DNA of 64,000 nt from Arthrobacter sp. MN05-02 (GTDB lineage Bacteria; Actinomycetota; Actinomycetes; Actinomycetales; Micrococcaceae): assembly GCA_004001285.1 (NCBI GenBank), contig AP018697.1, positions 1,054,001 through 1,118,000 on the forward strand. The letters are read 5' to 3'. Positions 765 to 45,092 of this stretch are shown here, piece by piece. Each line of letters starts with the position of its first letter. Within the stretch, counting starts at the first letter, position 1. The position numbers were made by a program, and so were the translations under genes. The notes below the pieces were generated by a model, which saw only the letters and a program-made list of their open reading frames with translations, had not been told where the DNA came from and ran no database searches.

Positions 765-792
765 CCGTCCTTCTCGTGAGACCGGAAGACGG
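765..792 (+). ncRNA. Hairpin with UGAGACC loop, copy 1 in rsmA leader
   Basis: CCGTCcTTC (765-773) pairs with GGAAGACGG (784-792) with one mismatch and one G-U pair, and closes a loop that ends in TGAGACC (777-783). The same heptamer is looped out at 865-871, 33517-33523 and 41588-41594. This copy lacks the outer stem seen in the other three. Confidence 0.4.
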
Positions 793-802
793 CGGTGTGT
801 CC

Positions 803-833
803 GACGGCTTCCCTTCCCAGCCGGGAAGCCGTC
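803..833 (+). terminator. Perfect 11-bp hairpin in the tatD-rsmA interval
   Basis: GACGGCTTCCC (803-813) and GGGAAGCCGTC (823-833) are perfect inverted repeats around a 9-base loop. No T-run follows, so it may be a terminator or part of the structured leader that continues at 841. Confidence 0.4.
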
Positions 834-840
834 CCTCCGC

Positions 841-898
841 GGGTCGGTGGCGCCGGAACCCTCCTGAGACCAGGGTTCGCACGAGGCGTCGCCGGTCC
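841..898 (+). ncRNA. Nested stem-loop with UGAGACC loop, copy 2 in rsmA leader
   Basis: Outer stem GGGTCGGTGGC (841-851) pairs with GTCGCCGGTCC (888-898) through Watson-Crick and G-U pairs. The inner stem GAACCCT/AGGGTTC (856-862/872-878) closes the loop CCTGAGACC. The architecture of outer stem, short linker, inner stem, nine-base loop and seven-base 3' linker matches the element at 33493-33552, although the stem sequences differ. It ends 70 bases before the rsmA start codon. Confidence 0.5.
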
Positions 899-967
899 GC
901 GGGGCGGACGACGCCGGGCAGGAGCCGCGCAGCGGGGACCGGACTCCGGGACGGATACGATGGCAGG

Positions 968-1855
968 GTGACAACGCCCCCCGCCGCACACCAGCCCGCG
1001 CCTCTCCTCGGAGCCGCAGACATCCGGCGCCTGGCGGCCGAGGTGGACATCCGTCCCACCAAGACCCTGGGGCAGAACTTCGTCATCGACGGCAACACCA
1101 TCCGCCGTATCGTCGCGGCCGCGAACCTGGCTGCGGACGAGACAGTCCTCGAGGTGGGCCCGGGTCTCGGGTCCCTGACGCTCGGCCTGCTCGACGCCGC
1201 CGAGCGCGTCGTCGCCGTCGAGATCGATCCGATCCTCGCCGGGAAACTGCCCGACACCATGGCCCGCTGGCGGCCCCACCGCGCGGACGCGCTCGACGTC
1301 GTCCGCCAGGACGCCCTGCGCGTGACGGAACTGCCGCACCCGCCCACGGCGCTCGTCGCCAACCTGCCGTACAACGTCGCCGTCCCCGTGGTCCTCAACC
1401 TCCTCGAGCGCTTCCCGTCCCTCCGGCACGGACTCGTGATGGTGCAGGACGAGGTGGCCGACCGGCTCGCTGCTCCTCCCGGTTCGAAGACCTACGGCGT
1501 ACCGTCCGTCAAGGCGGCCTGGTACTCGGACATGGCGAAGGCCGGGGTCGTGGGCATGAACGTGTTCTGGCCCGCACCGAAGATCGCCTCGGGCCTCGTC
1601 CGCTTCACCCGTAGGGAGCCGCCCGCGACGACCGCCACCCGGGAGCAGGTGTTCGCCGTCATCGACGCCGCGTTCGCCCAGCGCCGGAAGACCCTGCGGG
1701 CGGCGCTCGCAGGGTGGGCGGGGAGCCCCGTCCTCGCGGAGGAGGCGCTGCGCGCCGCCGGCGTGGACCCGACCGCCCGCGGCGAGGTCCTGGACATCGT
1801 GGCGTTCGCGCGCATCGCGGAAGCCCGCGCGACGGCTGCGGACTCCCCGGCGTGA
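968..1855 (+). CDS. rsmA: 16S rRNA (adenine1518-N6/adenine1519-N6)-dimethyltransferase
   Basis: A 295-residue protein of the KsgA/RsmA family, which dimethylates two adjacent adenines near the 3' end of 16S rRNA using S-adenosylmethionine during 30S maturation. Seen here: the family N-terminus PTKTLGQNF, the SAM-binding motif [12 protein letters not shown] near residue 60, and the catalytic NLPYN motif near residue 132. The GTG at 968 was chosen because the homologous region starts soon after it; the longer open frame upstream is low-complexity and has no ribosome site. ispE follows 22 bases downstream in the same direction, the common actinobacterial pairing. Confidence 0.96.
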
Positions 1856-1877
1856 ACCGAGCGGGTGGGCTAGGTTG

Positions 1878-2855: not shown

Positions 2856-2891
2856 CCGCGCACCACCGTTCCAACCGAAAGCAGCATCTCC

Positions 2892-4714
<1,823 letters not shown>

Positions 4715-4747
4715 GGCTCCGCGGCACGGACGACGGAAGGAACCACG

Positions 4748-10618: not shown

Positions 10619-10696
10619 CCCGGCTCCCGACCCGCACCGCTTCCCTCCCATACCCACCGACAATCCGCGCCATTCCTACCGGAAAGAGGACCGACG

Positions 10697-15264: not shown

Positions 15265-17321
15265 ATGAGCTACGGTCTCAGCATCGATGTAGGAACGAGC
15301 TTCACGGCCGCAGCCGTCATCCGGACGGACAGCGACGGGCCGGAGGCTCCCCGGGTGCTTCCGCTGGGCAGCCGGTCGGTGTGCATACCGACGGTCGTCT
15401 TCCTGGCGGCAGACGGCACCCGGCTGGTGGGCGAGGTCGCCGAACGGAGGGGGCTGTCGCAGCCGGAGCGCGTCACCCGGGAGTTCAAGCGGCGCATGGG
15501 CGACGTCGTCCCGCTGATGGTCGGAGATGTCGCGGTCCTGCCGCAGGACCTCTTCGCCGCCGTCGTGGCCTGGGTGGTGGGCGTTGCTACCGAGAGGGAG
15601 GGCGAGGCCCCCGAGGTCATCACCCTGACGCATCCAGTGGGATGGGGGGAGCACAGGACGTCCCTCCTGGAGCAGGCGCTCACCGAGGCAGGCATCGGTG
15701 AGGTCGTCCTGATGACGGAGCCGGAGGCCGCGGCGCTGTCATACGCGTCGCGGGAGCACGTCGCCTGCGGCAGCACCCTCGCCGTCTACGACCTGGGCGG
15801 CGGGACCTTCGATGCGACGGTCATCCGGAAGACCGACGCCGACTCGTTCAGTGTCCTCGGGGTGCCACAGGGCATCGAGCGCCTCGGCGGCGCGGACTTC
15901 GACCAGGAGATCTTCACCAGTGTCCTCGGGAGCGCAAAGGCATCCTTCACGGAGCCGGAACCGGGGCCGGAGATCCTTGCGGCCCTGAGCCGGCTCCGCA
16001 GGGAGTGCGCGGAAGCCAAGGAGGCGCTGTCCGCGGATTCGGAGGCCACGATCTCCGTGATGATCCCAGGGGCGCACGCGCAGGTACGCCTGGTGCGGTC
16101 GGAATTCGAGGCGATGATCGAACCCGCCGTCGCCGAGACGGTCGACACCCTGCGTGCGGCACTCGAGAGCGCGGAGGTCGATCCCGAGGACCTGTCGGCG
16201 ATCCTGCTGATCGGCGGATCCTCGCGCATCCCGCTGGTCGCGCAGATCCTGTCCAGCGCGTTCGACCGGCCGCTCGCCATCGACGTGGACCCCAAGGCGT
16301 CGGTGGCACTCGGCGCGGCCTTCGCGACGGCTGCCCTCGAGGATGCTTCCGGGCCGGAGGGGACCGCTCCGGACCGGCAGGACGACGATGCCGTGGCCGA
16401 CGGGCCGACGGGCCGAGGTGTGCCTCCGCGGCGCACCAACGCGGCGGGCTTCTCCCTGCCCCGGAGACAGGTGCCGGCTCCCCGCCACGGTCCGGCGTCG
16501 ACGGTCCCGAACCGTCGGTTGGGACTGCGGGTCGGAGTCATCGCCGCCGCCGTGGCGCTGCTCGGCGTCACGACCGCGACGGCTACGAACGCCCCCAATC
16601 CGCTTGCTGCCCTGTCGGCGCTGGGCGGCGACCAGCGGGCAGAGGCAGCAGAGGAGCCGAGGCCCACCCCGTCCACGGGAGAAGCCGTCGCAGAGCCGGG
16701 TGAGGGCGTGGGCGACGGTGGAGCCGGTCCGCTCCTGGACGCCGAGGCGGACCAGAACTTCCTGGAGAAGGCCGGGGTGCAGGCCGGAGCAGCACCAGGT
16801 CCCGGAGTCGCGAGCCCGGCCGGCACCCCGTCCGCTCCGACGGAGGGCGCGGGCCCGAGCGCCGGCCAGGTTCCGGATCCCGACGAGGGGGTGGCAGCGG
16901 ACACACCGGCCGGCACTCCCGCACGGGAAGGGGGCGCGACGCCGGCTCCTGCCCCCTCGGCCGCCGCCCTGCCGAGCCCGGGCAGAAGCCCGGTACGAGC
17001 CCGGTCGACCCGACGCCTCCGATCCCCTTCCCGACCCCTGCCCCAACCCCCGACCCCACCCCCGACCCTGTTCCCGACGCCACTCCTCCGCTCCTGTTCC
17101 GACGGACCCCGGTCGTCCAGCCGACCACCCCGCCGGCGCCCGAACCGACCGTCGGACCCACGACACCTCCTCCCGCGACGGACCCCGAGCCGCCCACGGA
17201 GCCCGCCCCTGTGCCGACGACGCCCGTCGCCGACCCGGCACCGGCAGGAGATCCGGTGCCCGCCGCACCGCCGTCCCCCGGCGAAGCTCCCATCGCGTCC
17301 ACCGCTGCACCCCTGGCCTGA
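15265..17321 (+). CDS. Membrane-anchored Hsp70-like ATPase with Pro/Thr-rich tail, frameshifted as given
   Basis: The N-terminal 370 residues are an Hsp70/actin-fold ATPase: DVGTSFTAAAV (phosphate 1), YDLGGGTFDATVI (phosphate 2) and LIGGSSRIPLV (adenosine). No substrate-binding domain follows. Instead there is a basic linker, one membrane segment near residues 420-440 (GVIAAAVALLGV) and a long Pro/Ala/Thr/Glu-rich tail. The tail changes frame near 16976-16983 (one base missing in a C/G run); with that corrected it runs to the TGA at 17319-17321, about 685 residues in all. GGTCTCA lies at codons 4-6. Hsp70-like genes of this type adjoin iniBAC-like clusters in other actinobacteria, and this one begins such a cluster. 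Confidence 0.85.
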
Positions 17322-24958: not shown

Positions 24959-25030
24959 TCCGCCCTGGTGTAACGGCAGCACCCCAGCCTTTGGAGCTGT
25001 GGAGTATAGGTTCGAATCCTATGGGCGGAA
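24959..25030 (+). tRNA. tRNA-Gln (anticodon TTG)
   Basis: All arms can be drawn: acceptor TCCGCCC with GGGCGGA, D-stem GTG/CAC, anticodon stem CCAGC/GCTGT with one C-T mismatch at the top, loop CTTTGGA with anticodon TTG at 24991-24993, variable loop GGAGT, and T-arm ATAGG-TTCGAAT-CCTAT. CCA is not encoded. A TAGATA hexamer about 48 bases upstream may be the -10. It lies directly before glmU, as in related actinobacteria. Confidence 0.97.
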
Positions 25031-27786: not shown

Positions 27787-27820
27787 CACTCGTGCCGCGT
27801 CCCCCTTCCCTTCCTAGGCT
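27787..27820 (+). promoter_or_regulatory. Promoter of the first LuxR gene, CACTCGTG box plus TAGGCT
   Basis: CACTCGTG (27787-27794) is followed after exactly 20 bases by the -10 hexamer TAGGCT (27815-27820); the LuxR start codon is 45 bases further on. The same arrangement occurs at 33399, 41314 and 45011. An inverted half-site, CGAGTAG, lies upstream at 27723-27729. Confidence 0.6.
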
Positions 27821-27864: not shown

Positions 27865-30617
27865 ATGCGGTCTCACAGTCTCGTCGAAACTCGTCCGGTC
27901 CCGCCTCTCGCTTCGCCGCTCCTACCGGGAGCCGCCCGGTCGGGCCAGGCGGCCACGCACACGGCTTTCATCGGCCGCGCGGAAGAGACGGCGAGCATCC
28001 TGCGGGCCGTGCGGCAGCCCGGCTCAGCAGGGGCAGTGGTGGTAGGGGCACCCGGCATCGGCAAGACAGCCCTGCTGCATCACGTGCAGCGTTCCCTCGC
28101 CGAGAGCTACCTCGTCCGCGTCCGTGGGCTCCGCTCCGCCGCATCCTCGCCGTTCCGGGCGCTGAGCTTCCTGCTGTCGGAGCTGCCCGGTACGGTCACC
28201 CACCCGGCGCTCGTGTTCAGCGCAGTATCGACGTATCTCCGCGCGGAGGCGGGCGGACGCCGGGTGGTCTTCGCCGTCGACAACGCCGAGCACCTGGACA
28301 GATCGTCCTCGACGCTGATCGGACAGCTCGTCGCAGCGAACGTGGCCTCCGTGGTCCTGACGGTGACCGACTTCGCGCAGGCGGATCCCGTGTTCATGAC
28401 GATGTGGCGCAATGCGTCGCTGCGGCGACTGGACCTCGCCCCCTTCACGTTCGAGGAGACCCGGCTCTTCGTCGAGTCCGAGCTCGACGCCCCTGTGAGC
28501 AGGAAGGGGATCGAGGCACTGTGGGCTGTCGGCGGAGGCAACCTCCCTGCGACGCGTGCGGCCCTCAGGGGCTATGTGCAACGCGGGACCCTCGCTCGGC
28601 GTGGGGCGGCGTGGGTTCTCCTGCCGGGTCGGCCGGTGGTGGGGCAGGACCTCGTCGCCCATTCGCCACTGCTGCTTCAGCTCGCGCCCAATCAGCGGAG
28701 CGTGGTGAACCTCGTGGCCCTCGCCGGAACGCTCGACTGGTCCGACCTCGCACGTGGTGCCGACTCCGCCGACCTCGACGCGCTGCAGGACGCCGGCATC
28801 ATCGTGATCGACGCCGGGTCGAGCCGCGTGCCCGCCTCGCGACGCCCGGGCTGTCGGCCGCCGTGGCCGAGGCCGTCAGTGCCGCCGAGGCGCGCGACCT
28901 CTACCAGCATCTTCAGGGACTTCCCGCAGCACCCGGGCAGCTCGCCGCCGATCCGGCGCGCCTGGTGGCATGGTTGCTGCGTGCCGCGCACCCGGTCAGT
29001 GAGGACCAGGCGGTGGCCGCTGCGGCGGCCCTGAACGACGAGGGTCATCATTCCCGGGCGGCGGACCTCCTTGCGGTGCTGGATCTTCCCGACTCGGACC
29101 GCCTGGTGTACCAGGCGGTCCGGGCAGCGATCGGCCAAGGATCCCTCAGAGCTGCCATGCTCCACCTGGCGGCCCTCGCCGACCGGGAGGACCGGCTGGA
29201 TCCCACGACGTGGACGCTGTCCAGGATCGCGGAGTCCAGGGTGCGGCGCCTCCGGCCGGTCGTCGACGCCCCTGAACCACTCGCCGACGCCTCGGAGCGG
29301 GTGGCCGCCTGGCAGCAGCAGGCGCAGGAAGCAGGAGACGACGGAGCGGTGGCGGAGCTGGCGCGGCTCGAGCGCCGACTGTTCGTCGAGCACGCTGTGC
29401 TGGCTTCGTTCCACGGGCGGTACCGCGACAATCTCGAAAGCCTGGCGGGTGTCGTCGACACCGACCTCGCAGTGTCCGCGGGTCGCGAGGAACACGAGTT
29501 CCAGGTCGAGGTCCAGTCGCTGCTCCTCGAGGCGCAGGTCGTCCTGGACGACCGATCGACGAGCGACGATCTGGCGCGATCGCTGGCACGCCTCCTCGTG
29601 CATCCCGACGTACCCTACGGGGTGGCGGACGCCGCGCTGCTCCGCGTCGAGGTCGCCCTCCTCATGACCGGTGGCTGGAGCGACACGGCACGGCTCCTCG
29701 GGTCGATCAGGCACTCGAACGCCCGGTGGTCGTTCAGGAGCGGGTCGCTCGCCCAGCTCTTCGAGGGTGTGACGATGATCGCCCTCGGCCGCGCCCGCGA
29801 TGCCGGCCACGCCCTGGAACCGGTGGTGGAGCAGCTGCGCATCGCGGATCCGCACGGGATCCTGCCGCTTGCCGCAGCGACGCTCACGTTCAGCCATGCG
29901 CTCGCCGGCCCACTGGAGCAGGTCATCGCGCACCTGCCCCTGTCCGAGCCCGGCCGGGGCAGCTCGTGGGTCGTGCGCCGTGCCGCCCGGCACTACCAGC
30001 TCCTCGCATCGGCGCGCACGGAGAATCGCGGGGAAGCCGCACGCCGACTGCAGGATCGTGCCACGAACGACCTGCGGCAGGAAGCGCGCGTCTGGGCCCT
30101 CGTGAGTCTGGCCGCCGCGGTGCGCCTCGGCCGCCAGGAGGCCGTTGCCGAGCTCGGTGCGCTTGCCGCCACGGTGAGCGGACCGCTGGCGCGAACGTGC
30201 TCCCTCTATTCGCAGGCACTCCTGGACTCCGACGTCGGGTTGCTGACCGAGGCGATGGAATGTGCGGCTGCATCGGACGACTACCGGCTCGTGGCGGACA
30301 TCGCGCAATCCGGCATCAACGCCACGACCCGGAACCAGGACAGGACGGGACTGCGCGTCATCCAGCGGCGACTGAGGGAGCTCCTGCCCGATGCGCCCCA
30401 GGCCGATGCCGGTGGGGTCGACCTCGACTCCCTCACCGCCCGCGAGCGTGAGGTCGCGGCGCTGGCGGCGGCGGGCAGGAGCAACAGGGCGATCGCCCAG
30501 AAGCTGGTCGTCTCCGTCCGGACGGTCGAGGGCCACCTGTACCAGGTGTACTCGAAGCTCAGCGTCAGCACGCGGTCGGAGCTCGCAGAACTCGTCCCCG
30601 TGGAGAGCGGTCTCTGA
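27865..30617 (+). CDS. LuxR family regulator with STAND ATPase (LAL type), first of four; frameshifted as given
   Basis: A protein of about 917 residues: N-terminal STAND ATPase with Walker A VGAPGIGKTAL near residue 55 and Walker B VVFAVDNAEHLD, a long helical-repeat sensor region, and a C-terminal LuxR helix-turn-helix (LTAREREVAALAAAGRSNRAI, then VSVRTVEGHLYQVYSKLSV). The frame changes near the CCC of 28831-28833; adding one base restores RLATPGLSAAV, so a missing C in the run is likely. GGTCTCA falls at 27869-27875, codons 2-4. The stop overlaps the next start (TGATG at 30615-30619). Such regulators respond to ligands or partner proteins by ATP-driven oligomerisation; the signal here is unknown. 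Confidence 0.85.
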
Positions 30618-33331
30618 TGTTCTCCGCACTGTCCGGGGACGTCCCACTCGTCGGCCGCAGTGCACTGCTCTCCTCCATCGAGCGGGCGCTCGAGCGGGAC
30701 GACGTCTACGGGGCATTCATCTACGGGGACACCGGGACCGGCAAGAGCGCCCTGGCACGACACCTCCTCAAGCACCTGCAGGGCGAGTCCGTACCCTTCC
30801 TGGTGTCACCGGCTCCCGCGCTCGGGGCCATCCCGTACGGTGCGCTCGCTCCCTTCCTCGCGGACGCGACACCGGAGGACATGGGCTCCCCACTCTCCGT
30901 CCTCCGCATGGTGATGTCCTTCTTCCGGACCAGGGCCAACGGCCGCTCGATCGTCGTCGTCGTGGACGACGCGCACCTGCTCGACGACGACAGCAGCCAC
31001 CTGCTGGCGCAGCTCGTCGCGTCGCGGACCGTCGGACTCGCAGCGTTCTCGCGATCCGTCACCCCGGTGTCCGACGAGCTCGTCTCGCTGTGCCGTGACG
31101 GCCTGCTCGAGCGGTTCGACGTGGGCCCCCTGAACTACGCGGATGCACTGGAACTGTGCGAGCAGGTGCTCGGCTCCGGTATCGTCCGCGGGGCGAGTGA
31201 CCGCCTGTGCGACGAGGCCTCCGGGAACCCGCTGTTCCTCAAGGCGATCCTCGACGAGGCGCTGATGAACGGGAGCCTGACCAGGCCCGACGGTGTGTGG
31301 ACCCTGGCCGACGGTGAGCTCAGTATCCCGGCCGCATTGAACGACCTCGTGCGCGCCATCCTCATGGAGTTCGACGACGTCCAGCGGAAGGCGTTCGAGG
31401 TGCTCGCCCTGGGTGAGGTCGTCGCCTTCGCGGACCTCGTGAGCGTGACCAGTGAGGAGGCGGTGTCCGCGCTGCTGACGGAGGGCGTCATCCGGAGCCT
31501 CCCCGACGATCCCGCTTTCGCCGTGCACACCCACGGCCTGTACGCGCGTATCGCCCGCACACTCGTCCCGCTCGGCCGCAGCGCCGCGATGCACCGCGAA
31601 CTGCGGTCGTCCAGCCACGGACTGCCTCTTCCGCCCCGGGCCAGGATCAGGGACGCGCTGTGGAGCCTGGACTGCGGCGAACCCGTCGAGGAGGATCGGC
31701 TGCTCGAACTGGCACCCCTTGCGCTGACCCTGCTGGACCCCCGCTCGGCCCTGAGGTTCGCGGGTGCGATCCGGGGAGAGCACCTCGCCGCGGCCGCGCG
31801 GACGCACCGCGCGACGGCCCTGCTCGAGCTGTCCCGGATCGAGGATTCCCGGAACCTGTCGAGGGGTCTCCTCGAGGAGACCGGCACTCCCGAGCTGATC
31901 GCCGCCGCGGGTGTCCTCGAGGTGAGGCAGCTGCTCGCAGCGGGCGAGGACGTCGCGGGGACGGAGAGGATCATCACGCGCTGGTCCGACGCCCTCGATG
32001 CCCTTGCACCGGACGGCGGGCGGACCCCCGACGCCGGACCGGGGACGGGCCCCGGCGGTGGCCCGGCCGCCGGCCTCGTCGACAGCGAGCAGTGCCGCGA
32101 CGTCGTCCGGGCTTTCGGCTGGAACCTCGCCGGGCGTTTCGGCGAGTCGGTCCGTGTCCTCCGGCCGCTTCTCGGGACGAGCACGAACCGACGAGTGACG
32201 GCGCTGGCACACGCCGTCCTGGCCGAGGCACTCGGTGCACTCGGCCGGAGCTCGGAGGGCCGGAACCACAGTGCGGCCGCCCTCGCGCTGACGGGGTCGG
32301 AGGTGCATCCCATGCCGGACCTGCATCGGGTGGCCGTCCTTCGCCACGTGAGCCTGCTCGTGCACAGCGGGGAATTCGAGGCGGCCGACCAGGCGACGGC
32401 GGCCTATGCGCCCCCTGAGGGCCGTGACTACTCGTTCACCAGCGGGAGCCTCGCTGTCCTCGACGCAGCGACCGACGTGCGCCGCGGGCGCTTCTCCAGC
32501 GGGCTGGCGAAGCTCCGCCCCGCCCTGGCCTCCCTGCGCGCCTCCGATCCTGATGCTCTCCTGCCGTACGCCCTCGGTGTCACCGGCTGGGCTGCCGCTG
32601 CGCTGGGGGAGGCGGACCTCGTCGACCAGTGTTCCGGCGAGCTCGCCGCAACGCAGCACCGCGGGAGCCGCCCGTACGCACTGCTCGCCAGGGCCTTCGA
32701 CGACGCTGCCCGCACGCTCCTGCGCAAGGGTGCCAGGGATTCGGCGCTCCTGCAGTACGCCGCCGAGGCCCGGCGGAACGAGTGGATCTGCTGCGAGAAG
32801 GACGTCCTCGAACTCGCGACGGCGCTCGCCGACGAGCAGTCGGCGGAACTGCTGGCGCGCGCAGCCGACACGATGGAGGGAACGGAGGCCGCCATCCTGC
32901 ACGACTATGCCTCGGCACTGATCGCGCGTGATGCCGCCGCCATCGCGGAGGCAGGTGACCGTGCCGAATCGTTCCAGAAATACCTGCTTGCCACGGACGC
33001 CTGCCGCCGGGCGATGGACGTCTACGCCGAAGCGGGAGATGCGAGATCGCAGCGGGCGCTTGCGGCCGTCGTGCGCCGTCGACGCGGCCTGATCGACGGG
33101 GGCCTGCTGGTCGAACCGGTCGAACTCGAGGGCCTGTCCCCGCTCACGTCGCGGGAACGGGAGATCGCCACGCTCGCACTGCAGGGACTGTCCAACAAGG
33201 ACATCGCGCGGAGTCTGACGGTGTCGACCCGGACCGTCGAGGGGCACCTGTACCGGATCTACGTGAAGCTGGGGATCGGTCGACGTGAGGAGCTCACGGC
33301 CGAACTCGAAGCACTTCTGCGGGCCACGTAG
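30617..33331 (+). CDS. LuxR family regulator with STAND ATPase (LAL type), second of four
   Basis: An intact 904-residue protein with Walker A YGDTGTGKSAL near residue 40, Walker B VVVVDDAHLLDDD near residue 118, helical repeats through the middle, and the C-terminal LuxR domain LTSREREIATLALQGLSNKDI with recognition helix VSTRTVEGHLYRIYVKLGI. It is coupled to the first regulator by a TGATG overlap. Its recognition helix differs little from those of the first and fourth regulators, so the three may read the same DNA site. It is followed by the small-RNA promoter at 33399. Confidence 0.93.
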   Translation: MFSALSGDVPLVGRSALLSSIERALERDDVYGAFIYGDTGTGKSALARHLLKHLQGESVPFLVSPAPALGAIPYGALAPFLADATPEDMGSPLSVLRMVMSFFRTRANGRSIVVVVDDAHLLDDDSSHLLAQLVASRTVGLAAFSRSVTPVSDELVSLCRDGLLERFDVGPLNYADALELCEQVLGSGIVRGASDRLCDEASGNPLFLKAILDEALMNGSLTRPDGVWTLADGELSIPAALNDLVRAILMEFDDVQRKAFEVLALGEVVAFADLVSVTSEEAVSALLTEGVIRSLPDDPAFAVHTHGLYARIARTLVPLGRSAAMHRELRSSSHGLPLPPRARIRDALWSLDCGEPVEEDRLLELAPLALTLLDPRSALRFAGAIRGEHLAAAARTHRATALLELSRIEDSRNLSRGLLEETGTPELIAAAGVLEVRQLLAAGEDVAGTERIITRWSDALDALAPDGGRTPDAGPGTGPGGGPAAGLVDSEQCRDVVRAFGWNLAGRFGESVRVLRPLLGTSTNRRVTALAHAVLAEALGALGRSSEGRNHSAAALALTGSEVHPMPDLHRVAVLRHVSLLVHSGEFEAADQATAAYAPPEGRDYSFTSGSLAVLDAATDVRRGRFSSGLAKLRPALASLRASDPDALLPYALGVTGWAAAALGEADLVDQCSGELAATQHRGSRPYALLARAFDDAARTLLRKGARDSALLQYAAEARRNEWICCEKDVLELATALADEQSAELLARAADTMEGTEAAILHDYASALIARDAAAIAEAGDRAESFQKYLLATDACRRAMDVYAEAGDARSQRALAAVVRRRRGLIDGGLLVEPVELEGLSPLTSREREIATLALQGLSNKDIARSLTVSTRTVEGHLYRIYVKLGIGRREELTAELEALLRAT

Positions 33332-33398
33332 CCCTGATGTCACGGCTAGGTAATCCTGGTACCGATCTAGGTAGTCCCTCGTCCGATTAGGGTCCGTA
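33332..33398 (+). promoter_or_regulatory. Repeat-rich upstream region of the small-RNA promoter
   Basis: TAGGTAATCC and TAGGTAGTCC, each followed a few bases later by CCGAT, give two imperfect direct repeats upstream of the CTACTCGTG box at 33399. Similar CAGGTAGTC boxes occur at 45001 and 15151. Binding of one or more LuxR regulators is a reasonable guess. Confidence 0.35.
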
Positions 33399-33433
33399 CT
33401 ACTCGTGATCGCCCTCGAAGAGCAGCCTAGAGT
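33399..33433 (+). promoter_or_regulatory. Promoter with CTACTCGTG box and TAGAGT, drives a small RNA
   Basis: CTACTCGTG (33399-33407), 20 bases, then TAGAGT (33428-33433). Transcription would begin near 33440. No reading frame with a ribosome site follows before the terminator at 33592-33629. Confidence 0.6.
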
Positions 33434-33439
33434 TGTAGA

Positions 33440-33635
33440 CGTCGGAGACGGTGCACCCGGGGAATCCGGACACCATGCACGGCCCACGATCCGGGTCGGC
33501 GGCGTAGGAGTTCTCTTGAGACCAGGACTTCGTCCCCAGCCGCCGCCGACCCCAACCCCTGGCAGCCCCCGGATCCCGGGAGCAGGGATACCGAATCGGC
33601 CCTTCACCGCGAGGTGAGGGGCCGATTCGTCTATG
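33440..33635 (+). ncRNA. Candidate LuxR-controlled small RNA with UGAGACC loop
   Basis: About 195 bases bounded by a promoter (33399-33433) and an intrinsic terminator (33592-33629), with no gene inside. Inside are a first hairpin around 33451-33475 (GGTG...CCGG-GGAAT-CCGG...CACC) and a nested element: outer stem GGGTCGGCGGC (33493-33503) with GCCGCCGACCC (33542-33552), inner stem GGAGTTCT/AGGACTTC and loop CTTGAGACC (33515-33523). The exopolysaccharide leader at 41521-41638 has the same order of parts and the shared string CGTCCCCAGCCG. The 5' and 3' ends are estimates. Confidence 0.6.
33592..33629 (+). terminator. Intrinsic terminator with GCGA tetraloop
   Basis: A 17-bp stem with one G-U pair, CGAATCGGCCCTTCACC (33592-33608) with GGTGAGGGGCCGATTCG (33613-33629), closed by a GCGA loop and followed by TCTAT. 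It ends the small RNA on the plus strand and could also serve the convergent VanZ-like gene. Confidence 0.8.
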
Positions 33636-33695
33636 ACGGCTCGCTGCGGCACGAGCCGGCCCGCGCGCAGGCATGGCTCGGACGGGAAGGCGCGG

Positions 33696-34082
33696 TCAGC
33701 GCCGGTGTCGCCGGGTCCTCAGCATGGTCCACGCGAGGAGTGTCCCGGCAACCGCGCCGATCGTATTGGCCACCACATCGTAGGGGCTGGCGACACGCTG
33801 CGACAGCGCGACCAGCTGGACGGCCTCGATCAGTGCTGACAGGCCGAAGGCCACGACCGGTCCGAGCCAGCGCCAGCCGCGCGGAGCGAGGAGGAAGACG
33901 AACAGGCCCAGGGGGAGGAACATCAGGGCGTTCGCGGCGAACTCGACGAACCCGTAGTCGAACCACCCGGGCGCGCCGTACCCCTGCAGGAGAACCAGGA
34001 CCCGGCGCAGGAGATCGCCCGCGTGGCGGTCGACGGGCAGGGGCGAGAAGACGGTGAAGCCGACCCCCAGGAGCCACAGCAT
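33696..34082 (-). CDS. VanZ-like membrane protein
   Basis: At least 128 residues with four membrane segments: the start (LLGVGFTVFSPLP), VEFAANALMFLPLGLFVFLL, WLGPVVAFGLSALIEAVQL with the conserved Glu, and the late VVANTIGAVAGTLLAW. The pattern SxLIExxQ...R...D(V/I)xxNxxGxxxG is the VanZ signature. The ATG at 34082 is the first in-frame methionine, but upstream residues (YRLVTLALC) also look like membrane segment, so the true start is probably 10-20 codons further upstream or hidden by an indel. VanZ-like proteins are linked to glycopeptide tolerance or envelope functions; the role here is unknown. Confidence 0.75.
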   Translation of the reverse strand: MLWLLGVGFTVFSPLPVDRHAGDLLRRVLVLLQGYGAPGWFDYGFVEFAANALMFLPLGLFVFLLAPRGWRWLGPVVAFGLSALIEAVQLVALSQRVASPYDVVANTIGAVAGTLLAWTMLRTRRHRR

Positions 34083-35101: not shown

Positions 35102-35115
35102 GCAGGTACCGCACG

Positions 35116-38541: not shown

Positions 38542-41218
38542 TGGGCGACGGATCCAGCATCGACCTCGTCGGCCGTGGCCGGCTCGTCGAGGACATCGCT
38601 GCAGCGCTCGACGAGCCGAGCGGATTCGGCGTGATGATCGTCGGAGCGGCCGGCGTGGGGAAGACAGCCGTCGCGCGGGCGGTCCTGGAACGTCTGAACT
38701 GGACCGCCCAGGTGCTGCGCACCACGGGGGGCTCCTCGCTGCGCAGCATACCCTTCGGCGCTCTGGCACCCTACCTGCACACGCTGTCGGTGGCCGACGC
38801 GGGATCACCCGTCGCGGTCCTCCGCGCGGTGCTGGGGCACCTGACGCGGGGAAGCACGGGCCGCACGCAGCATCCGCCCCTCCTGGTGGTCGACGACGCC
38901 CACGAACTCGACAGCAGTTCGAGTGCTCTCCTCGCCCAGCTGGTCAGTGCGCGGCGGGCCAAGGTGCTCGTCATGATCCGCGATATCACGACTGCCCCCG
39001 TCGAGTTCCGCAGTCTGGGCGCGGATGGTCTCCTGGCACGCTTCGACCTCGCGCCACTGGATCCCGATGCCGTGAACGCCCTGACGTCCCAGCTGCTCGG
39101 TGGGCCTGTCCTGACGGGTACCGCGCATGCGCTCGCGCTGACGACGGGTGGAAATCCGATGTTCCTCCGCGCGTTGCTGGAGCAGGGTCTCGGCGAGGGA
39201 TACCTCACCCAGCACGATGGTGTCTGGCGCCAGGTCACCGAGCGGCCGATGCTCTCCCCACGACTCCGGGACCTCGTCCGCTCGCAGCTCCGGCTGCGGA
39301 GCGCAGCAGACCTCGAGGCGCTGGAGACCGTCGCCCTCGCGGAACCGATCGCCCTCGATGCCGTGGTCCGATGCGTGGATGCCGATGCCCTCAACCGTCT
39401 GAGGGACGATCGCCTGGTCGCCGTCGGGTCCGGGCCAGGCGCCCCCGTGTCGCTCGAACATCCGCTCCACGGCGAAGTCCTCCGCAGCCAGGTACCTGCA
39501 GCGCGCAGTATGGCGATCCGCCGGAAGGTGCTCGCAGCCACGGAACCGGGATCGCAGTCCCTCGAGGGTTTCCTCCGGATGGTGGTCTGGGGACTCGACT
39601 GCGGGGTTCCTCCCGACGACCGGGAGCTCCTCGAGGCCGCCATCGTCGCCAACGGGCTCCGGGACTCCGACACCGCCCTCCGGGCCGCCCGCGCGGTGTC
39701 CGCGCCAGGGCTCAGGGGCTCTGCCCTCATCGAGATCGCCCGCGTGCATGCCCGCAGGGGCGACCTGGCGTACGCACGGGACGTCGTGGACGACGCCCTG
39801 CGGCGCTGCACGGACCTGCGTCTCGCGAAGGCCGCCACGTTGCTGTCCCAGGAGCTCAAGCTGAGGTCCCGGGCCTCCTTCGAGGACCTGCACGAGGACG
39901 TCGACCGCTGGAGGTCCCCTCATCGCCCGGATCGGGCTGCGGGCGGGAGCGCGCGTTCCGGCCGAGCAGCTCGCCCAGGCGCAGCTCGGCTGCAGGATCC
40001 TCGAGTGTCACGTACTCGTCCTTCAGGGGCGGTTCGCCGGTATCGAGGATGAACTGCGCGATGTCGTCGCCGGTTCCCGGGGCACGCCCGAGACCCGCCT
40101 GGGGGCGATGATCGTGCTCGCCGAGCTGCTCGGCAGTACGGGTCGCCCGGTCGACGCCGGTGCCTTCTCGAGGGCCGCGCTGGACAGCATCGACAGCGCG
40201 GGCGCGGCCCTGCTGGGCTACCGCGAGTTCGCCACGGCGCAGCATGTGCTGGTGCTGTCCGGTCGTGGGCAGGAGGCAGATGCGAAGGCGGCCCTACAGG
40301 CGTACTCGCGGGTCCAACCGCGCAGCATCGTGTATCTCGCAGGCTGGAGCGATGTCATCGACGGCCATGCGGCCCTCCGGGAGGGCCGGAACCGGGAAGC
40401 CCGGAACAGGTTCCTCCTCGCGCTCGAGGCACTCCGGGGGAACCGATGCCACGCAGGTGACGACACTGCTGACGGGCCTTGCGGCGTACGCCTGTGCACT
40501 CGCCGGTGATACGACCGGCGCCGCCGAACTCGTCGACGAGTTCGAGCGGACGCCCGCGGAGGGCGCCCGCGCGATGCTCCTGGGTGGACGCGTCTTCGTG
40601 ACGGCGACCGCGGCCCTCCTGGGCGAGGTCCCCGGTGCCACGGCGGAGTTGATCAGCCTCGCCGCAGCGGCCGAGGCGGACCAGATGAAGCACCTGGCGG
40701 TCACCGCACTCAGGCTGGCCCTCCTGCTGGGGGACACGGATGCCGTGGGCCCCCTCACCCGTGTCCTGCAGGATTTCCAGGGCGTGGGCACCACCGGCCT
40801 GCTCGAGTTCGCGATGGCGGCCGGAACGAAGGACGCCGACGCCATGGTCGCCGCAGCCACCACGGGAGGAGAGCGCGGGGACGTGGCGTTCGAGTACGCG
40901 GGTCTGTCCCTCGCCATGCAGGTGGCAGGGGAGCAGGGCTCGACTCGCTCTGCCCGTGCGATCCAGCGACGGCTGGTGACGCTGGGCAAGCGGTGGGAGG
41001 GGCCCGTGCCGCCGGCGCTGGTGTCGGCGTCGGCCGCGGAGACCACGTCCCGTCTCACCCCCACGGAGCGCAAGATCGTCGCACTGGTCAACGAGGGCTA
41101 TTCGAACCGCGAGATAGCGGACGCCAAGAATGTCTCGGTCCGGACCGTGGAGGGCCATCTGTACCGGATCTTCGCCAAGCTCGGCGTCAACCGCCGGGAG
41201 GACCTGCGGGAATCCTGA
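38541..41218 (+). CDS. LuxR family regulator with STAND ATPase (LAL type), fourth of four; frameshifted twice as given
   Basis: About 892 residues after correction. Walker A is VGAAGVGKTAV near residue 35, Walker B is LLVVDDAHELD near residue 115, helical repeats follow, and the C-terminal LuxR domain is LTPTERKIVALVNEGYSNREI with recognition helix VSVRTVEGHLYRIFAKLGV. Two extra bases break the frame, one in the C run at 39916-39919 and one in the G run at 40436-40440. Dropping one base at each gives a continuous homologous protein, so consensus errors are likely. It ends just ahead of the second exopolysaccharide promoter. Confidence 0.82.
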
Positions 41219-41258
41219 CCCGCGACCACAGGTAGGCCGAAGCGCCCTACGTACTGTG

Positions 41259-41348
41259 CACGAGTAGCGCACGCGTAGTCCCACGTAAGGGCCGCGGCCC
41301 GATCGCGTAGGTGCTACTCGTGTGCCGATAAAAGCCCCTATCTAGGAT
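41259..41348 (+). promoter_or_regulatory. Promoter of the second exopolysaccharide operon with inverted CTACTCGTG boxes
   Basis: CACGAGTAG (41259-41267) and CTACTCGTG (41314-41322) are perfect inverted copies 46 bases apart. The second is followed after 20 bases by the -10 hexamer TAGGAT (41343-41348). Transcription would start near 41355, giving a 320-base leader before the first gene. A CAGGTAGG box lies at 41229. Confidence 0.62.
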
Positions 41349-41354
41349 TTCGAC

Positions 41355-41520
41355 AAGAGCCCGAAGGAGGGCTGGGGAAATTCTTGAAGAATCGGGTCTC
41401 ACTCATGGGTCGTTCATTTTGCGGCATCCGCCACCCGTCAGGGGCAGGCGCCCACTCTTTCTTTCCTCCGAATTCAGGGGAGCGGCATTTCACCGAATGC
41501 GTTTCCCTGAACCATTTGCA
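41355..41520 (+). other. First part of the exopolysaccharide operon leader
   Basis: Less GC-rich than its surroundings. It contains GGTCTCA at 41395-41401 just before an ATG at 41405. A 61-codon frame from that ATG ends at TGA 41588-41590, inside the UGAGACC loop of the following RNA element. Its start lacks a well-placed ribosome site, so translation is doubtful. Confidence 0.3.
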
Positions 41521-41638
41521 GACGGGTTGCCGCGAAACCGGCAACCGGGTCGCATCCCCGATCGGAGCCGGCGATGTCAGGACCTTCTGAGACCAAGGTC
41601 CGTCCCCAGCCGTCGTCGGCTCCCCTGTTCAACCCGTC
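41521..41638 (+). ncRNA. Structured leader element of the exopolysaccharide operon with UGAGACC loop
   Basis: The closing stem GACGGGTTG (41521-41529) pairs perfectly with CAACCCGTC (41630-41638). Inside are the hairpin GGTTGCCG/CGGCAACC and a nested element: GAGCCGGCGATG (41565-41576) with CGTCGTCGGCTC (41611-41622), inner stem GGACCTT/AAGGTCC and loop CTGAGACC (41587-41594). The stems differ in sequence from the small RNA at 33440 but pair at the same places. It ends 40 bases before the first gene, a position suited to control of elongation or translation. Confidence 0.62.
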
Positions 41639-41677
41639 GTGCAGCAGTGTCGCTGCATCCTCGAAAGGGGGCACACG

Positions 41678-43168
41678 ATGACGCAGATGCAGAGCTCGCT
41701 CGGCAGGTTCGCCACGGTCCCGAGAACCACAGCGTCGTCGAGGTCGATCGCCACCTCGGGTACGGCGTGGCGCCGGCGGTACCAGGTCTCGCTCATGGCC
41801 ACCGATTCCGTGCTCATCCTCGGGATCCTGCTGCTGACCGTGAACGTCCTGACGCTCGACGACAGCAGCCGGCGGCTGACGGAGGTCCTCCTCCTCGGTG
41901 GCGCGATCGCCGCCGGGTGGGTGACGGCGATGTCGCTCTTCCGGACGCGGGACTCCCGCCTCGTCGGCACGGGAGCCGGCGAGTACAAGAAGGTGGTCCG
42001 CGCGAGCATCGCCACCTTCGCGGCCGCGGCCGTCGTCGTCGCCCTCCTGGATCTCGATCACTTCCGGAGCCTGCTCGTCCTCGCGTTGCCGTCGGGCACC
42101 CTGCTCCTGTTGTCGAGCCGGTGGCTGTGGCGCCAGTGGCTGCTGCACCAGAGCCACCTGGGCCACTATCTCTCGAAGGTCGTCGTCGTCGGTCAGCCCG
42201 CGGACGTCCGCTATGTCGCCGCGCAGCTGGCCAAGAAGTCCGGCGCGGCGTACACCGTCGTCGGCGCCGTCTACGAAGGGAAGTCCAACCCGGCGGCCCT
42301 GCACACGGGCGAGCGGATCGTCCCGGTGGTCAGCGGACTGCGGAAGATCGAGGACTTCGTGGCCTACACGGGGGCGGATGCGGTCATCGTCGCCGGTCAC
42401 CTGCACAAGGGCAGCTCCTACATCCGGGAACTCGGCTGGCGCCTCGAGGAGTCCTCGACCGAGCTGGTGCTCGCGTCGGCGCTCACCAATGTCGCCGGTC
42501 CGCGCATCACCATGCGGCCCGTCGAAGGATTGCCCCTCATGCACGTCGAACTGCCCCAGTTCACGGGCGGGCGGCACATCCTGAAGAGGGCCATGGACAT
42601 CATCGTCTCCGCCACGGCACTGCTCATCCTGGCACCGGTGTTCCTCCTCCTGGTGATCGCCATCCGGCGGGACACCCCGGGAAACGCCTTCTTCGCGCAG
42701 GAACGGGCAGGCAAGAACTCGGCCGTCTTCAGGATGTTCAAGTTCCGTTCCATGGTCGCCACGGCCGAGGACGAGCTCGAGGTCCTGCGGGAGCGGAACG
42801 AGGGCAACGGTGTGCTGTTCAAGCTGCGCGACGACCCGCGGGTCACCCGGGTCGGACGGATCATCAGGAAATACTCCCTCGACGAACTTCCCCAGTTCTG
42901 GAACGTCCTCCGCGGCGAGATGTCGCTCGTGGGACCTCGACCCCCGCTCGTCAGCGAGGTCTCCGGCTACGAGGAGCACACGCACCGCCGGCTCCTGATC
43001 AAGCCAGGGCTTACCGGTCTGTGGCAGGTCAGCGGACGGTCGGACCTCGACTGGGAGGAGAGCGTGCGGCTCGACCTCTACTACGTCGAGAACTGGTCGG
43101 TCACCGGGGACCTCATCATCATCTGGCGCACCTTCAAGGTGATGCTCAAGCCCGTCGGTGCCTACTGA
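41678..43168 (+). CDS. Polyprenyl glycosylphosphotransferase (WbaP/ExoY type), initiating enzyme
   Basis: A 496-residue membrane enzyme that transfers the first sugar-1-phosphate to undecaprenyl phosphate. Four N-terminal membrane segments (about residues 30-155) and a CoA-binding-like Rossmann region (VVVVGQPADVRYVA) precede the catalytic domain. That domain begins with KRAMDIIVSATALLILAPVF near residue 305 and contains KFRSM, KYSLDELPQFWNVLRGEMSLVGPRPP and PGLTGLWQVSGRSDL. The ATG follows GAAAGGGGG. It is the first gene of the operon and overlaps the next frame by TGATG, although the likelier start there is further on. Confidence 0.94.
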   Translation: MTQMQSSLGRFATVPRTTASSRSIATSGTAWRRRYQVSLMATDSVLILGILLLTVNVLTLDDSSRRLTEVLLLGGAIAAGWVTAMSLFRTRDSRLVGTGAGEYKKVVRASIATFAAAAVVVALLDLDHFRSLLVLALPSGTLLLLSSRWLWRQWLLHQSHLGHYLSKVVVVGQPADVRYVAAQLAKKSGAAYTVVGAVYEGKSNPAALHTGERIVPVVSGLRKIEDFVAYTGADAVIVAGHLHKGSSYIRELGWRLEESSTELVLASALTNVAGPRITMRPVEGLPLMHVELPQFTGGRHILKRAMDIIVSATALLILAPVFLLLVIAIRRDTPGNAFFAQERAGKNSAVFRMFKFRSMVATAEDELEVLRERNEGNGVLFKLRDDPRVTRVGRIIRKYSLDELPQFWNVLRGEMSLVGPRPPLVSEVSGYEEHTHRRLLIKPGLTGLWQVSGRSDLDWEESVRLDLYYVENWSVTGDLIIIWRTFKVMLKPVGAY

Positions 43169-43248
43169 TGTGCCCCTCTCCACCGGCGACCGGGACCCCG
43201 GCACCGGCAGTCACGCCCGCGGTCGCGGCCACCAGCGAAGGAAGCTCC

Positions 43249-43695
43249 ATGGGAATCCGGATCGGATATGCCGCCGGTGCGTTCGACCTCTTCCACGTCG
43301 GGCACCTCAATCTGCTCCGGCACGCCAAGAGCGAGTGCGACTTCCTCATCGCAGGCGTCGTCTCCGACGAACTGCTGGAGAAGAACAAGGGGAAGCGACC
43401 GGTCATCCCGCTGATCGAACGGCTCGAGATCGTCGAGAGCGTACAGTTCGTCGACCGTGCGGTCGCCGAGACCACTCCGACGAAGCTCGACATGTGGAAG
43501 CAGCTCGGCTTCAACGTCTTCTTCAAGGGAGACGACTGGAAGGGCACTCCCAAGGGGCTCGCCCTCGAGGAATCCTTCGCCCGGGTCGGCGTCGAGGTCG
43601 TCTACTTCCCGTACACCGTCCACACCTCCAGCACCTTCCTGCGGCGGACCCTGGAGCTCCTCAACGCTCCCGAGGTCCAGCAAGCCGCGCTCTGA
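43249..43695 (+). CDS. Cytidylyltransferase, glycerol-3-phosphate cytidylyltransferase-like
   Basis: A 148-residue nucleotidyltransferase. The HxGH motif is in FDLFHVGHLNLL near residue 14, and VHTSSTFLRR near the C-terminus matches the STT/R motif of TagD-type enzymes, which make CDP-glycerol or a similar CDP-polyol. The ATG at 43249 follows GCGAAGGAAGCTCC; an ATG at 43168 overlapping the upstream stop would add 27 low-complexity residues. With the CDP-alcohol phosphotransferase at 52565 it suggests a polyol-phosphate part in the surface polymer. Confidence 0.87.
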   Translation: MGIRIGYAAGAFDLFHVGHLNLLRHAKSECDFLIAGVVSDELLEKNKGKRPVIPLIERLEIVESVQFVDRAVAETTPTKLDMWKQLGFNVFFKGDDWKGTPKGLALEESFARVGVEVVYFPYTVHTSSTFLRRTLELLNAPEVQQAAL

Positions 43696-43754
43696 CACAA
43701 CGATCCGTGCACCCGTCCCCTTCGAGGGGTGCGCATCCATACTGGGAGCCCATC

Positions 43755-44933
43755 ATGTACCTGCCGTCGTCCCGCTCGACACCCCTCCGCATCGCCCTCG
43801 TCGGAACCCGCGGGGTGCCGGCGCGCTACGGGGGATTCGAGACCTGCGTCGAGGAGGTCGGGCAGCGCCTCGCCGCGCGGGGCCATGACGTCGTCGTCTA
43901 CTGCAGGTCCTCGGACGGCACGCGTCCCGCCGAGAACGAGTACAAGGGGATGACCCTCGTACACCTGCCCGCCCTCAAGCGACGATCGCTCGAGACGCTC
44001 AGCCATACCGGGCTCTCGGCCGGGCACCTGTTCGTCAGGCGTGCCGACGTCGCCGTCGTCTTCAACGCGGCCAACTCGCCGTGGCTGCCCGTCCTGCGGG
44101 CAGCAGGCATACCGGTCGCAACACACGTGGACGGGCTCGAGTGGAAGCGCGCCAAGTGGGGACCGCTGGGGAAGAGGTACTACCGGGTCGCCGAGTCGCT
44201 CGCGGTCCGCTGGTCCGATGCCCTCATCGCGGATGCCGCCGGCATCCAGGACTACTACCGCCAGGAATTCGGCGTCGACAGCACCTACCTGGCCTACGGC
44301 GCTCCGATCCTCGAAGGCGGGGCGTCGCACCGGCTCGCGGAGCTCGGCCTCACCCCCGGCGGCTACCACCTGGTGGTGGCCCGGTTCGAGCCGGAGAACC
44401 ACGTCCATGTCATCGTCGAGGGTTACGTCCGCAGCAAGGCCGAGCTGCCGCTGATCGTCGTCGGCTCCGCCCCCTACTCCGACGGCTACACGCAGCACGT
44501 CACATCGCTGGGCGACGAGCGGGTGCGCTTCATCGGCGGGGTGTGGGACCAGGAACTCCTCGACCAGCTGTATGCCAACGCACGGATCTACTGGCACGGC
44601 CATTCGGTCGGCGGCACCAATCCCTCGCTCCTCCGTGCCATGGGGGCCGGCGTCGCGACCAACGCCTTCGACGTGAACTTCAACCGCGAGGTACTGGGGG
44701 CCAACGGCGAGTACTTCGCCGACGCCGCCGCCATCCCCGCGCAGGTGCACGCCGCGGAGGCCTCGGCGTCGGACACCGTGCTCCGCGGCAAGAAGTCCCA
44801 GGTGGATGCCCTGGCGTACGACTGGGATCGCGTGGCGGAGGGTTACGAGCGGTTGTGCCTCGAGCTCGCCGGTCGCCGCGGTGCCCGCGGACGTCGTTCC
44901 GGTGCCTTCCCGCTGACCGATACCACGCCCTGA
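43755..44933 (+). CDS. GT4 glycosyltransferase with DUF1972 N-terminal domain
   Basis: A 392-residue cytoplasmic or membrane-associated retaining glycosyltransferase. The N-terminal VGTRGVPARYGGFET is the signature of the DUF1972/rhamnosyltransferase group, and the C-terminal nucleotide-binding half holds VGGTNPSLLRAMGAG. The ATG follows ACTGGGAGCCCATC. The gene lies 59 bases after the cytidylyltransferase, with an intervening GCACCC/GGGTGC hairpin (43709-43732). The sugar transferred is unknown. Confidence 0.9.
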   Translation: MYLPSSRSTPLRIALVGTRGVPARYGGFETCVEEVGQRLAARGHDVVVYCRSSDGTRPAENEYKGMTLVHLPALKRRSLETLSHTGLSAGHLFVRRADVAVVFNAANSPWLPVLRAAGIPVATHVDGLEWKRAKWGPLGKRYYRVAESLAVRWSDALIADAAGIQDYYRQEFGVDSTYLAYGAPILEGGASHRLAELGLTPGGYHLVVARFEPENHVHVIVEGYVRSKAELPLIVVGSAPYSDGYTQHVTSLGDERVRFIGGVWDQELLDQLYANARIYWHGHSVGGTNPSLLRAMGAGVATNAFDVNFNREVLGANGEYFADAAAIPAQVHAAEASASDTVLRGKKSQVDALAYDWDRVAEGYERLCLELAGRRGARGRRSGAFPLTDTTP

Positions 44934-44943
44934 GGCGGCACGG

Positions 44944-44980
44944 CCGGACCACCCGCCGACGGGGATTCCGAGTGGTCCGG
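44944..44980 (+). terminator. Hairpin after the DUF1972 glycosyltransferase gene
   Basis: CCGGACCAC (44944-44952) and GTGGTCCGG (44972-44980) form a perfect 9-bp stem 11 bases after the stop codon. A new promoter follows at 45011. Confidence 0.6.
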
Positions 44981-45010
44981 ACGACGGTCCCGGAAGGCTA
45001 CAGGTAGTCG

Positions 45011-45044
45011 CTACTCGTGTTTCCGATCCGCCGGATCCTACGGT
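45011..45044 (+). promoter_or_regulatory. Promoter with CTACTCGTG box and TACGGT, drives lipoprotein/Wzx operon
   Basis: CTACTCGTG (45011-45019), 19 bases, then TACGGT (45039-45044); the lipoprotein start is at 45093. CAGGTAGTCG directly precedes the box (45001-45010). The short leader contains GGTCTCA at 45085-45091, ending one base before the ATG. Confidence 0.6.
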
Positions 45045-45092
45045 TTACCCAGCTTATTCGTCCTACCTGGACGAACTGACGATTGGTCTCAT

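Follow-up and report, generated by a model that had tools for sequence, protein, structure and literature searches.

A conserved hairpin RNA family with a loop complementary to mRNA starts, and a putative RNA-RNA regulon with a shared promoter type, in Arthrobacter sp. MN05-02

Bacterial small RNAs (sRNAs) with sites at the ribosome site or in the first codons of a messenger RNA (mRNA) usually repress it. Expression of the uof leader open reading frame (ORF) is coupled to that of fur, and JUMPstart/ops is a short element found in leaders that precede long biosynthesis operons. The LhrC sRNAs of Listeria are multicopy, are induced by cell-envelope stress and carry the seed UCCC (PMC4132741); RyhB acts on the uof leader ORF of fur (PMC11550727); in the LoaP/dfn system, an UNCG-type leader hairpin is bound by a NusG paralog (PMC12691694); and the epsC and wcaG motifs are structured RNAs in the leaders of exopolysaccharide genes (PMC2864571). 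Here, a stretch of 64,000 nucleotides from Arthrobacter sp. MN05-02 (contig AP018697.1, positions 1,054,001 to 1,118,000; hereafter the window) is analyzed, in which UGAGACC forms the loop of a conserved structured RNA family that is absent from Rfam 15. The complementarity between this loop and mRNA starts that read GGUCUCA is conserved for the leader of a polysaccharide operon and for a lipoprotein gene and, in part of the genus, for the first gene of a LAL/LuxR regulator cluster (LAL1).

An exact search of the window finds TGAGACC at 777, 865, 33517 and 41588, and GGTCTCA at 15274, 20835, 27869, 41395 and 45085 on the plus strand and at 15007-15001 on the minus strand. These are exactly the ten places listed in an earlier note on this DNA, which took all four TGAGACC copies for hairpin loops; three of them (865, 33517 and 41588) indeed belong to one RNA family, and the fourth (777) is a separate hairpin. 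The regions around 33517 and 41588 share TGAGACC followed by GTCCCCAGCC, and the pattern TGAGACC-N4..14-CCCCAGCC, present in 26 of the 38 genus genomes, yielded 31 loci; four were dropped by eye as unrelated (L036, L038, L042 and L057), 27 were aligned and 12 of these were used to build a covariance model. The model has exactly three matches in the genome of this strain, all within the window. They are listed here with the promoters (ACTCGTG upstream of a -10 box), targets and genes to which they are linked.

673..705, plus strand: promoter of sRNA-2, ACTCGTG-N20-TAATGT, one of eight genome-wide matches of the relaxed pattern
763..797, plus strand: hairpin 1 of sRNA-2, UGAGACC at 777-783, identified by fold and recurrence in relatives
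841..900, plus strand: hairpin 2 of sRNA-2, a family element with loop UGAGACC at 865-871 (46.5 bits, E 1.3e-7)
968..1855, plus strand: rsmA, 16S ribosomal RNA adenine dimethylase (Pfam RrnaAD, 1.7e-42), downstream of sRNA-2
27788..27820, plus strand: promoter of LAL1, ACTCGTG-N20-TAGGCT
27865..33331, plus strand: LAL/LuxR regulator cluster, ORFs 27865-29034, 28404-30617 and 30617-33331 (Pfam AAA_16 and GerE)
27869..27875, plus strand: GGTCTCA target in codons 2-4 of LAL1 (ATG at 27865)
33401..33433, plus strand: promoter of sRNA-1, ACTCGTG-N20-TAGAGT
33440..33635, plus strand: putative sRNA-1, ends approximate, placed by promoter and fold
33493..33554, plus strand: family element of sRNA-1, loop UGAGACC at 33517-33523 (92.2 bits, E 3e-17), with close copies across the genus
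41316..41348, plus strand: promoter of the polysaccharide leader, ACTCGTG-N20-TAGGAT
41395..41401, plus strand: GGTCTCA target just before the start of the leader ORF
41405..41590, plus strand: leader ORF, ending at the UGA of the hairpin loop
41565..41624, plus strand: family element of the leader, loop UGAGACC at 41588-41594 (56.6 bits, E 9.5e-10)
41678..43168, plus strand: polysaccharide sugar transferase (Bac_transf, Pfam 3.6e-68)
45013..45044, plus strand: promoter of the lipoprotein gene, ACTCGTG-N19-TACGGT
45085..45091, plus strand: GGTCTCA target one base before the lipoprotein ATG at 45093

The covariance model identifies the family in 37 of the 38 genus genomes, with 1-3 copies each and a single copy in some, and in 136 of the 295 genomes of the taxonomic family, representing 16 of 32 genera. 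Under stricter filters, 21 of 396 genomes of an order sample and 4 of 394 genomes of a class sample matched, all inside the same taxonomic family; among 80 loci of sugar-transferase relatives, seven have an element match below E 1e-6, two of these in Leifsonia. An Rfam 15 scan of the window reports only a transfer RNA above gathering score (24959-25030, RF00005, 56.8 bits) and no family for the hairpin elements; the matches at 33380-33700 and 41250-41700 are weak, below gathering and from unrelated families. One weak match, to c4-a1b1 antisense targets (21.7 bits, compared to a gathering score of 46.7), falls at 41513-41564, inside the polysaccharide leader. No description of the hairpin RNA was found in a literature search that reached few subscription papers.

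The element consists of an outer stem of about 12 pairs, usually 2-4 nucleotides, and an inner stem of mostly 6-8 pairs, free in sequence, that carries an apical loop of 7-10 nucleotides, mostly YGAGACC; the 3' internal loop mostly ends in CCCCAGC. Over 65 distinct elements, in an alignment that was fitted to the structure, 98.9% of the stem cells pair, and 18 of the 20 stem pairs show double-sided changes, compared to 9.9 +/- 1.6 in shuffles (none of 500 as high) and to only 3-6 pairs in a control with slid partners. An alignment-free parse of 93 distinct elements, 92 of which gave the inner stem, agrees with this structure. In this parse, the outer stem cells contain 95 G.U vs 3 A.C, indicating that the plus-strand RNA is the folded molecule. 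Conservation of an encoded peptide does not account for that of the hairpin: although the element of the polysaccharide leaders is contained in an open frame, variation in this frame is lowest at the third codon position (0.087 vs 0.187 and 0.129 at the others), the opposite of a coding signature.

A LAL/LuxR gene lies close upstream in 95 of the 151 distinct places of the element. The downstream genes vary (polysaccharide sugar transferase in 56, sufS in 20 and rsmA in 14); a metabolite riboswitch would be recognized by ligand binding together with a consistent class of such genes. In three loci (L239, L238 and L221), the element has a LAL gene on one side and a sufS-like gene on the other, with a NifU_N gene coming after the latter in L239, and it apparently precedes a separate promoter (GGGACAAT, by eye). 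Tandem copies are found in L229 (4001-4177) and L227 (4001-4126), with starts 117 and 67 nucleotides apart, respectively, and L046 has a second, partial copy downstream, recognized by eye. In one clade (L169, L175, L178, L179 and L182), the loop reads CCCCAGACU in place of GAGACC; a -10 box lies 8-10 nucleotides before the hairpin in this clade and, in L169, a U-rich terminator follows it directly.

What links these elements to the mRNA starts is a promoter type. ACTCGTG, followed after 19-20 nucleotides by a TA..T -10 box, is found before LAL1, sRNA-1, the polysaccharide leader and the lipoprotein gene, and these four are the only matches in the whole genome of the strict pattern ACTCGTG-N18..21-TASRNT, which was itself derived from them (one match for the backwards control). 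The same four promoter matches, and nothing else, are found in G001. The relaxed pattern ACTCGTG-N19..21-TANNNT has eight matches in the genome, with four for the backwards control; all five matches in the window carry the loop or its complement, whereas the three elsewhere carry neither. A promoter-like match of the same genome at C1:2526869-2526901 lies upstream of an ORF and has no loop or target. All three mRNAs with this promoter type in the window carry GGTCTCA within 160 nucleotides (post hoc P of about 1e-7, based on how often the heptamer occurs in the genome). At the loci of relatives, GGTCTC is found within 160 nucleotides of 30 of 59 distinct promoters, compared to 7.7% of random stretches; two of the 59 are the window's own, and the share is biased because the loci were chosen for the element, LAL1 or the transferase. 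Nine more of these promoters have the hairpin, and 20 have neither GGTCTC nor the usual hairpin, four of them (L169, L175, L178 and L179) carrying the hairpin with the variant loop. Among 20 further promoter matches picked by hand from those of the genus genomes, 11 have GGTCTC downstream, in 10 cases close to an ATG. In L399 (G018) and L402 (G013), the promoter and AGGTCTCGATCATG accompany a different start, which could be an additional target. The members of the window's regulon each carry either the loop or its complement; what connects them is their common promoter rather than the heptamer as such.

The polysaccharide leader holds both target and hairpin, the latter being flanked by a LuxR gene (40160-41218) and the sugar transferase gene. 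GGTCTCA is kept in all eight leader-like regions compared (window included), 163-174 nucleotides before the hairpin; the gene downstream of the G009 region is aminotransferase-like. Full upstream sequence is available for 54 of the sugar-transferase places, 47 of them non-redundant. Among these 47 leaders, GGTCTC is more frequent than any other hexamer (35 leaders), the mean for its permutations being 4.4 and the highest 18, for CTCGTG of the promoter motif, and it is followed by ATG within 6 nucleotides in 32 leaders (11 for the next permutation). In the set of 54, an ATG that is near begins 0-5 nucleotides after GGTCTC, and the sense of the site is biased, with GGTCTC in 41 leaders and GAGACC in 4. 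At the seventh base of the loop-target pairing, the combinations are U-A 24, U-G 6, C-G 4, C-A 2 and U-C 2, a trend that is weakly significant (Fisher 0.03) among related rows. Five leaders (L317, L226, L096, L240 and L315) contain 2-3 repeated GGTCTC sites before the start of the leader ORF. A second pairing, between GCTGGGG and the CCCCAGC of the internal loop, was considered and rejected as a general feature; it is found in leaders of the window's own clade, and CTGGGG occurs in 3 of 29 non-redundant leaders, a count that its permutations also reach.

In 37 of 38 leader rows, two of which represent one leader with two hairpins, the frame that begins at the ATG after GGTCTC is 58-122 codons long; in L234, the frame is fused with that of the transferase. 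In 35 rows, the leader ORF stops within -5 to +4 nucleotides of a start codon that is in frame with the transferase, and ATGA or GTGA stop/start overlaps, read by eye, are present in 29 (28 in a script count of ATG only). Judging from the arrangement of the two frames, this is the layout of translational coupling, as in uof-fur. An in-frame UGA in the loop is not a general feature, being confined to the window and G002. In G003 (L390) and G006 (L391), the leader has the promoter, GGTCTCA and the ATG of the leader ORF, with neither GAGACC nor a covariance-model hit up to an E-value of 1. The two genomes retain sRNA-1 and the rsmA-linked element at other loci, and the G003 leader ORF, although shortened, nonetheless overlaps the transferase at its end in an ATGA (by eye). 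In G029 (L394), the hairpin of the leader has degenerated (18.9 bits, E 0.026), whereas UGAGACC is retained. The persistence of the target in G003 and G006 in the absence of a cis hairpin favors action in trans.

The lipoprotein start reads GGTCTCACATG in G001, where the ortholog was identified by tblastn, and also in G003, G006 and G029, where it was recognized by promoter and start only. At the start of LAL1, GGTCTC is present in nine of 16 clearly placed orthologs (all six of the first set, along with G008, G009 and G027); the orthologs of G034 and G011 could not be placed. At the promoter corresponding to LAL1, G029 has GGTCTCGTATG. The ORFs 27865-29034 (AAA_16) and 28404-30617 (GerE) overlap widely in different frames; the region 27865-30617 could hold either a single LAL gene that is split or a pair of genes, the second of which starts late. 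The three other GGTCTCA sites lack the shared promoter and are probably due to chance: the Hsp70 site (15274) reads GGTCTCG and GGTCTTG in the two orthologs found, the beta-helix site (15007) is kept in one of two, and for iniB (20835), no GGTCTCA is found at the start in two orthologs, the terminator not having been compared.

Judging by their own promoter motif, sRNA-1 and sRNA-2 look like stand-alone sRNAs. The sRNA-1 element lies 162 nucleotides after the LAL gene 30617-33331. Inspection by eye shows a loose form of the motif before 19 of the 23 genus elements of the sRNA-1 type, and 45 of the 79 other elements that are not before a transferase or rsmA have at least a loose match. In the predicted fold of sRNA-1, the loop is open at its core (mean unpaired 0.64, four bases 0.96-0.98), and a strong hairpin at 33593-33632, which lacks a U tract, is a possible terminator. 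In sRNA-2, hairpin 1 yields only a partial, 9.5-bit covariance-model match and is a separate hairpin on the same presumed transcript as the element at 841-900, not a member of the family. GAGACC is found 50-63 nucleotides before hairpin 2 in 15 of the 16 loci listed, namely 14 rsmA-linked ones (window included), L203 and the exception, L204; the promoter motif is present in 12 of the 14. The GTG start of rsmA is preceded by a TACGAT-like -10 box, suggesting that this gene probably has its own leaderless promoter.

From the RNA family, the promoter motif, the conserved complementarity and the stop/start overlap, all of which can be read in the sequence, we infer transcription, pairing, repression and the type of activator as follows. 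These genes likely form an RNA-RNA regulon of one activator, in which the loop would pair with ribosome sites and repress translation. The activator, which is probably a LAL/LuxR protein because LAL/LuxR genes sit beside these promoters, would bind ACTCGTG upstream of the TANNNT -10 box and switch on the LAL1 operon, the polysaccharide operon, the lipoprotein gene and the two stand-alone sRNAs. The sRNAs and the end of the polysaccharide leader would fold into the double-stem hairpin, and the UGAGACC in its apical loop would form seven base pairs (about -9.9 kcal/mol) with the GGUCUCA that the co-induced mRNAs carry at their ribosome site or in their first codons. Initiation would thereby be blocked, so that the regulon would contain its own brake. 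For the polysaccharide leader, this would concern the start of the leader ORF, and given that its stop meets the transferase start in most relatives, expression of the coupled sugar transferase would be lowered too. The sRNAs would act in trans and the leader's own hairpin, where present, in cis. That the pairing site overlaps the ribosome site or the first codons speaks for repression, although activation instead is possible.

Several observations weigh against this scheme. The raw count of the heptamer is not enriched: the window total of 10 compares to 12.04 +/- 3.28 in shuffles, and among the first 30 listed copies of the genome, 20 are within called ORFs and only one is within 20 nucleotides of an ORF start, in line with the statistical caution of the earlier note. 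Genome-wide (3.64 Mb), there are 222 copies vs 132 for the backwards-read control, and GGTCTCA-N0-5-ATG has 17 matches vs 6 for the backwards pattern, few of them, by judgement, plausible starts besides the leader ORF and the lipoprotein; by itself, the heptamer is no marker of translation starts, and the signal sits in the promoter-linked subset. The strict promoter pattern was fitted to the promoters it recovers, and a near-identical one has 86 matches over the 38 genus genomes vs 51 for the control (hand-summed), so that about one chance match per genome is to be expected. The LAL1 site is missing in seven of the 16 orthologs (G004, G005, G010, G014, G019, G022 and G032), all from genomes that keep the UGAGACC loop in sRNA-1; in the five genomes of the clade with the other loop, the LAL1-like gene is only 29-31% identical and in no case has GGTCTC. 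The variant loop itself has no certain target: GUGUUGGGG precedes the LAL1-like gene in all five genomes and would pair with it at about -10 kcal/mol, but this loop scores equally well on unrelated leaders of the window, which makes GUGUUGGGG uncertain as a co-evolved target. Among the 56 sugar-transferase hairpin places, 15 lack GGTCTC within 300 nucleotides, including both Leifsonia places and a few with short upstream sequence, and in L184, L185 and L191, the loop CGAGACC faces the target GGTCTCA with a terminal mismatch. The leader ORFs of the window and G002 are out of frame and terminate within the loop. A terminator scan of the window found no canonical terminator for sRNA-1. Finally, in the predicted folds, the targets are largely paired in the mRNA starts (mean unpaired 0.14-0.47), as is most of the leader's own loop (0.23), so that opening or a helper would be needed.

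The first of three alternatives, which we regard as unlikely, is that the loop and GGUCUC are both sites of a protein that binds RNA or DNA and do not pair with each other. As GAGACC and GGTCTC represent the same DNA duplex, a single DNA-binding protein could recognize both; the variety of genes after the element (polysaccharide, sufS and rsmA), the conservation of the internal loop CCCCAGC, which has no general partner, and the loss of the LAL1 site in seven genomes that retain the loop are all compatible with this possibility. A protein site does not readily explain, however, the exact complementarity with opposite sense in starts and loops, the position of the site 0-5 nucleotides before the ATG where one is near, while its distance from the -10 box in leaders and LAL1 ranges from 30 to 52 nucleotides, or the U-A/U-G/C-G pattern at the seventh base. 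The second, that GGUCUCA only belongs to a ribosome site of unusual type (AAGG followed by TCTCA) and the hairpin has a separate role, for example as a stabilizer or attenuator, appears quite improbable. Many sites do read GAAGGTCTCA-ATG, which contains a Shine-Dalgarno-like stretch, and leaders that have lost the hairpin retain the site; nevertheless, the conserved TCTC does not consist of Shine-Dalgarno letters, the LAL1 heptamer lies inside codons 2-4 and the stand-alone hairpins share the promoter motif. Chance coincidence of the heptamer, despite the counts and ORF positions given above, is very hard to reconcile with its recurrence at the leader, the lipoprotein gene and many LAL1 starts along with the promoter link, and is contradicted for the polysaccharide leader, but it stands for Hsp70, beta-helix and iniB.

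Altogether, the pairing of a loop seed with the starts of surface-polymer and regulator genes, as proposed in the earlier note, was right in kind but had too wide a target list. Three of the six sites (27869, 41395 and 45085) are supported, and the expected retention in relatives with the hairpins applies to the polysaccharide and lipoprotein sites, whereas LAL1 is weaker; the promoter, the second sRNA and the leader ORF had been missed. Within the regulon with pairing at the ribosome sites, one hairpin module might be used twice, in free sRNAs that silence co-induced mRNAs in trans and as the tail of the polysaccharide leader ORF, where it could close the leader's ribosome site in cis as long as translation does not hold it open. 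This extension is tentative and somewhat doubtful; if true, it would constitute a two-state translational switch for the polysaccharide, tuned by sRNA dose. For Arthrobacter and its kin in the Micrococcaceae, the analysis yields a conserved RNA family missing from Rfam 15, along with its promoter motif, a set of named targets and a pairing that is predicted letter for letter.

Compared with the known systems, the elements analyzed here resemble the epsC and wcaG motifs in being structured RNAs of an exopolysaccharide leader and differ in that they match no Rfam family at gathering score. As in LoaP/dfn and JUMPstart/ops, a long biosynthesis operon has a short hairpin or element in its leader; LoaP-type antitermination was rejected, given a single PF02357 (NusG-family) match genome-wide and the apical loop of 7-10 nucleotides, mostly YGAGACC, not UNCG. 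The sRNA component resembles LhrC, with several homologous copies (at least two per genome being the mark of an LhrC-like system, and three present in this genome), the same short seed in the loops and pairing, proposed for the present family, with a surface-protein mRNA upstream of its start codon (PMC4132741). The complementarity to mRNA starts that a trans-acting sRNA should show is found for the leader and the lipoprotein gene and, in only nine of 16 orthologs, for LAL1. Unlike LhrC, this family belongs to another lineage, has another seed, occurs also inside a target leader and shares the promoter motif between sRNAs and targets. If the proposed pairing is true, this would be a compact case in which targets and brake are produced from the same promoter type and an sRNA and a target leader share one structural module. 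As with RyhB and uof-fur, the sRNA would target a leader ORF to which expression of the main gene is coupled, with the difference that most of the leaders described here carry their own copy of the pairing hairpin.

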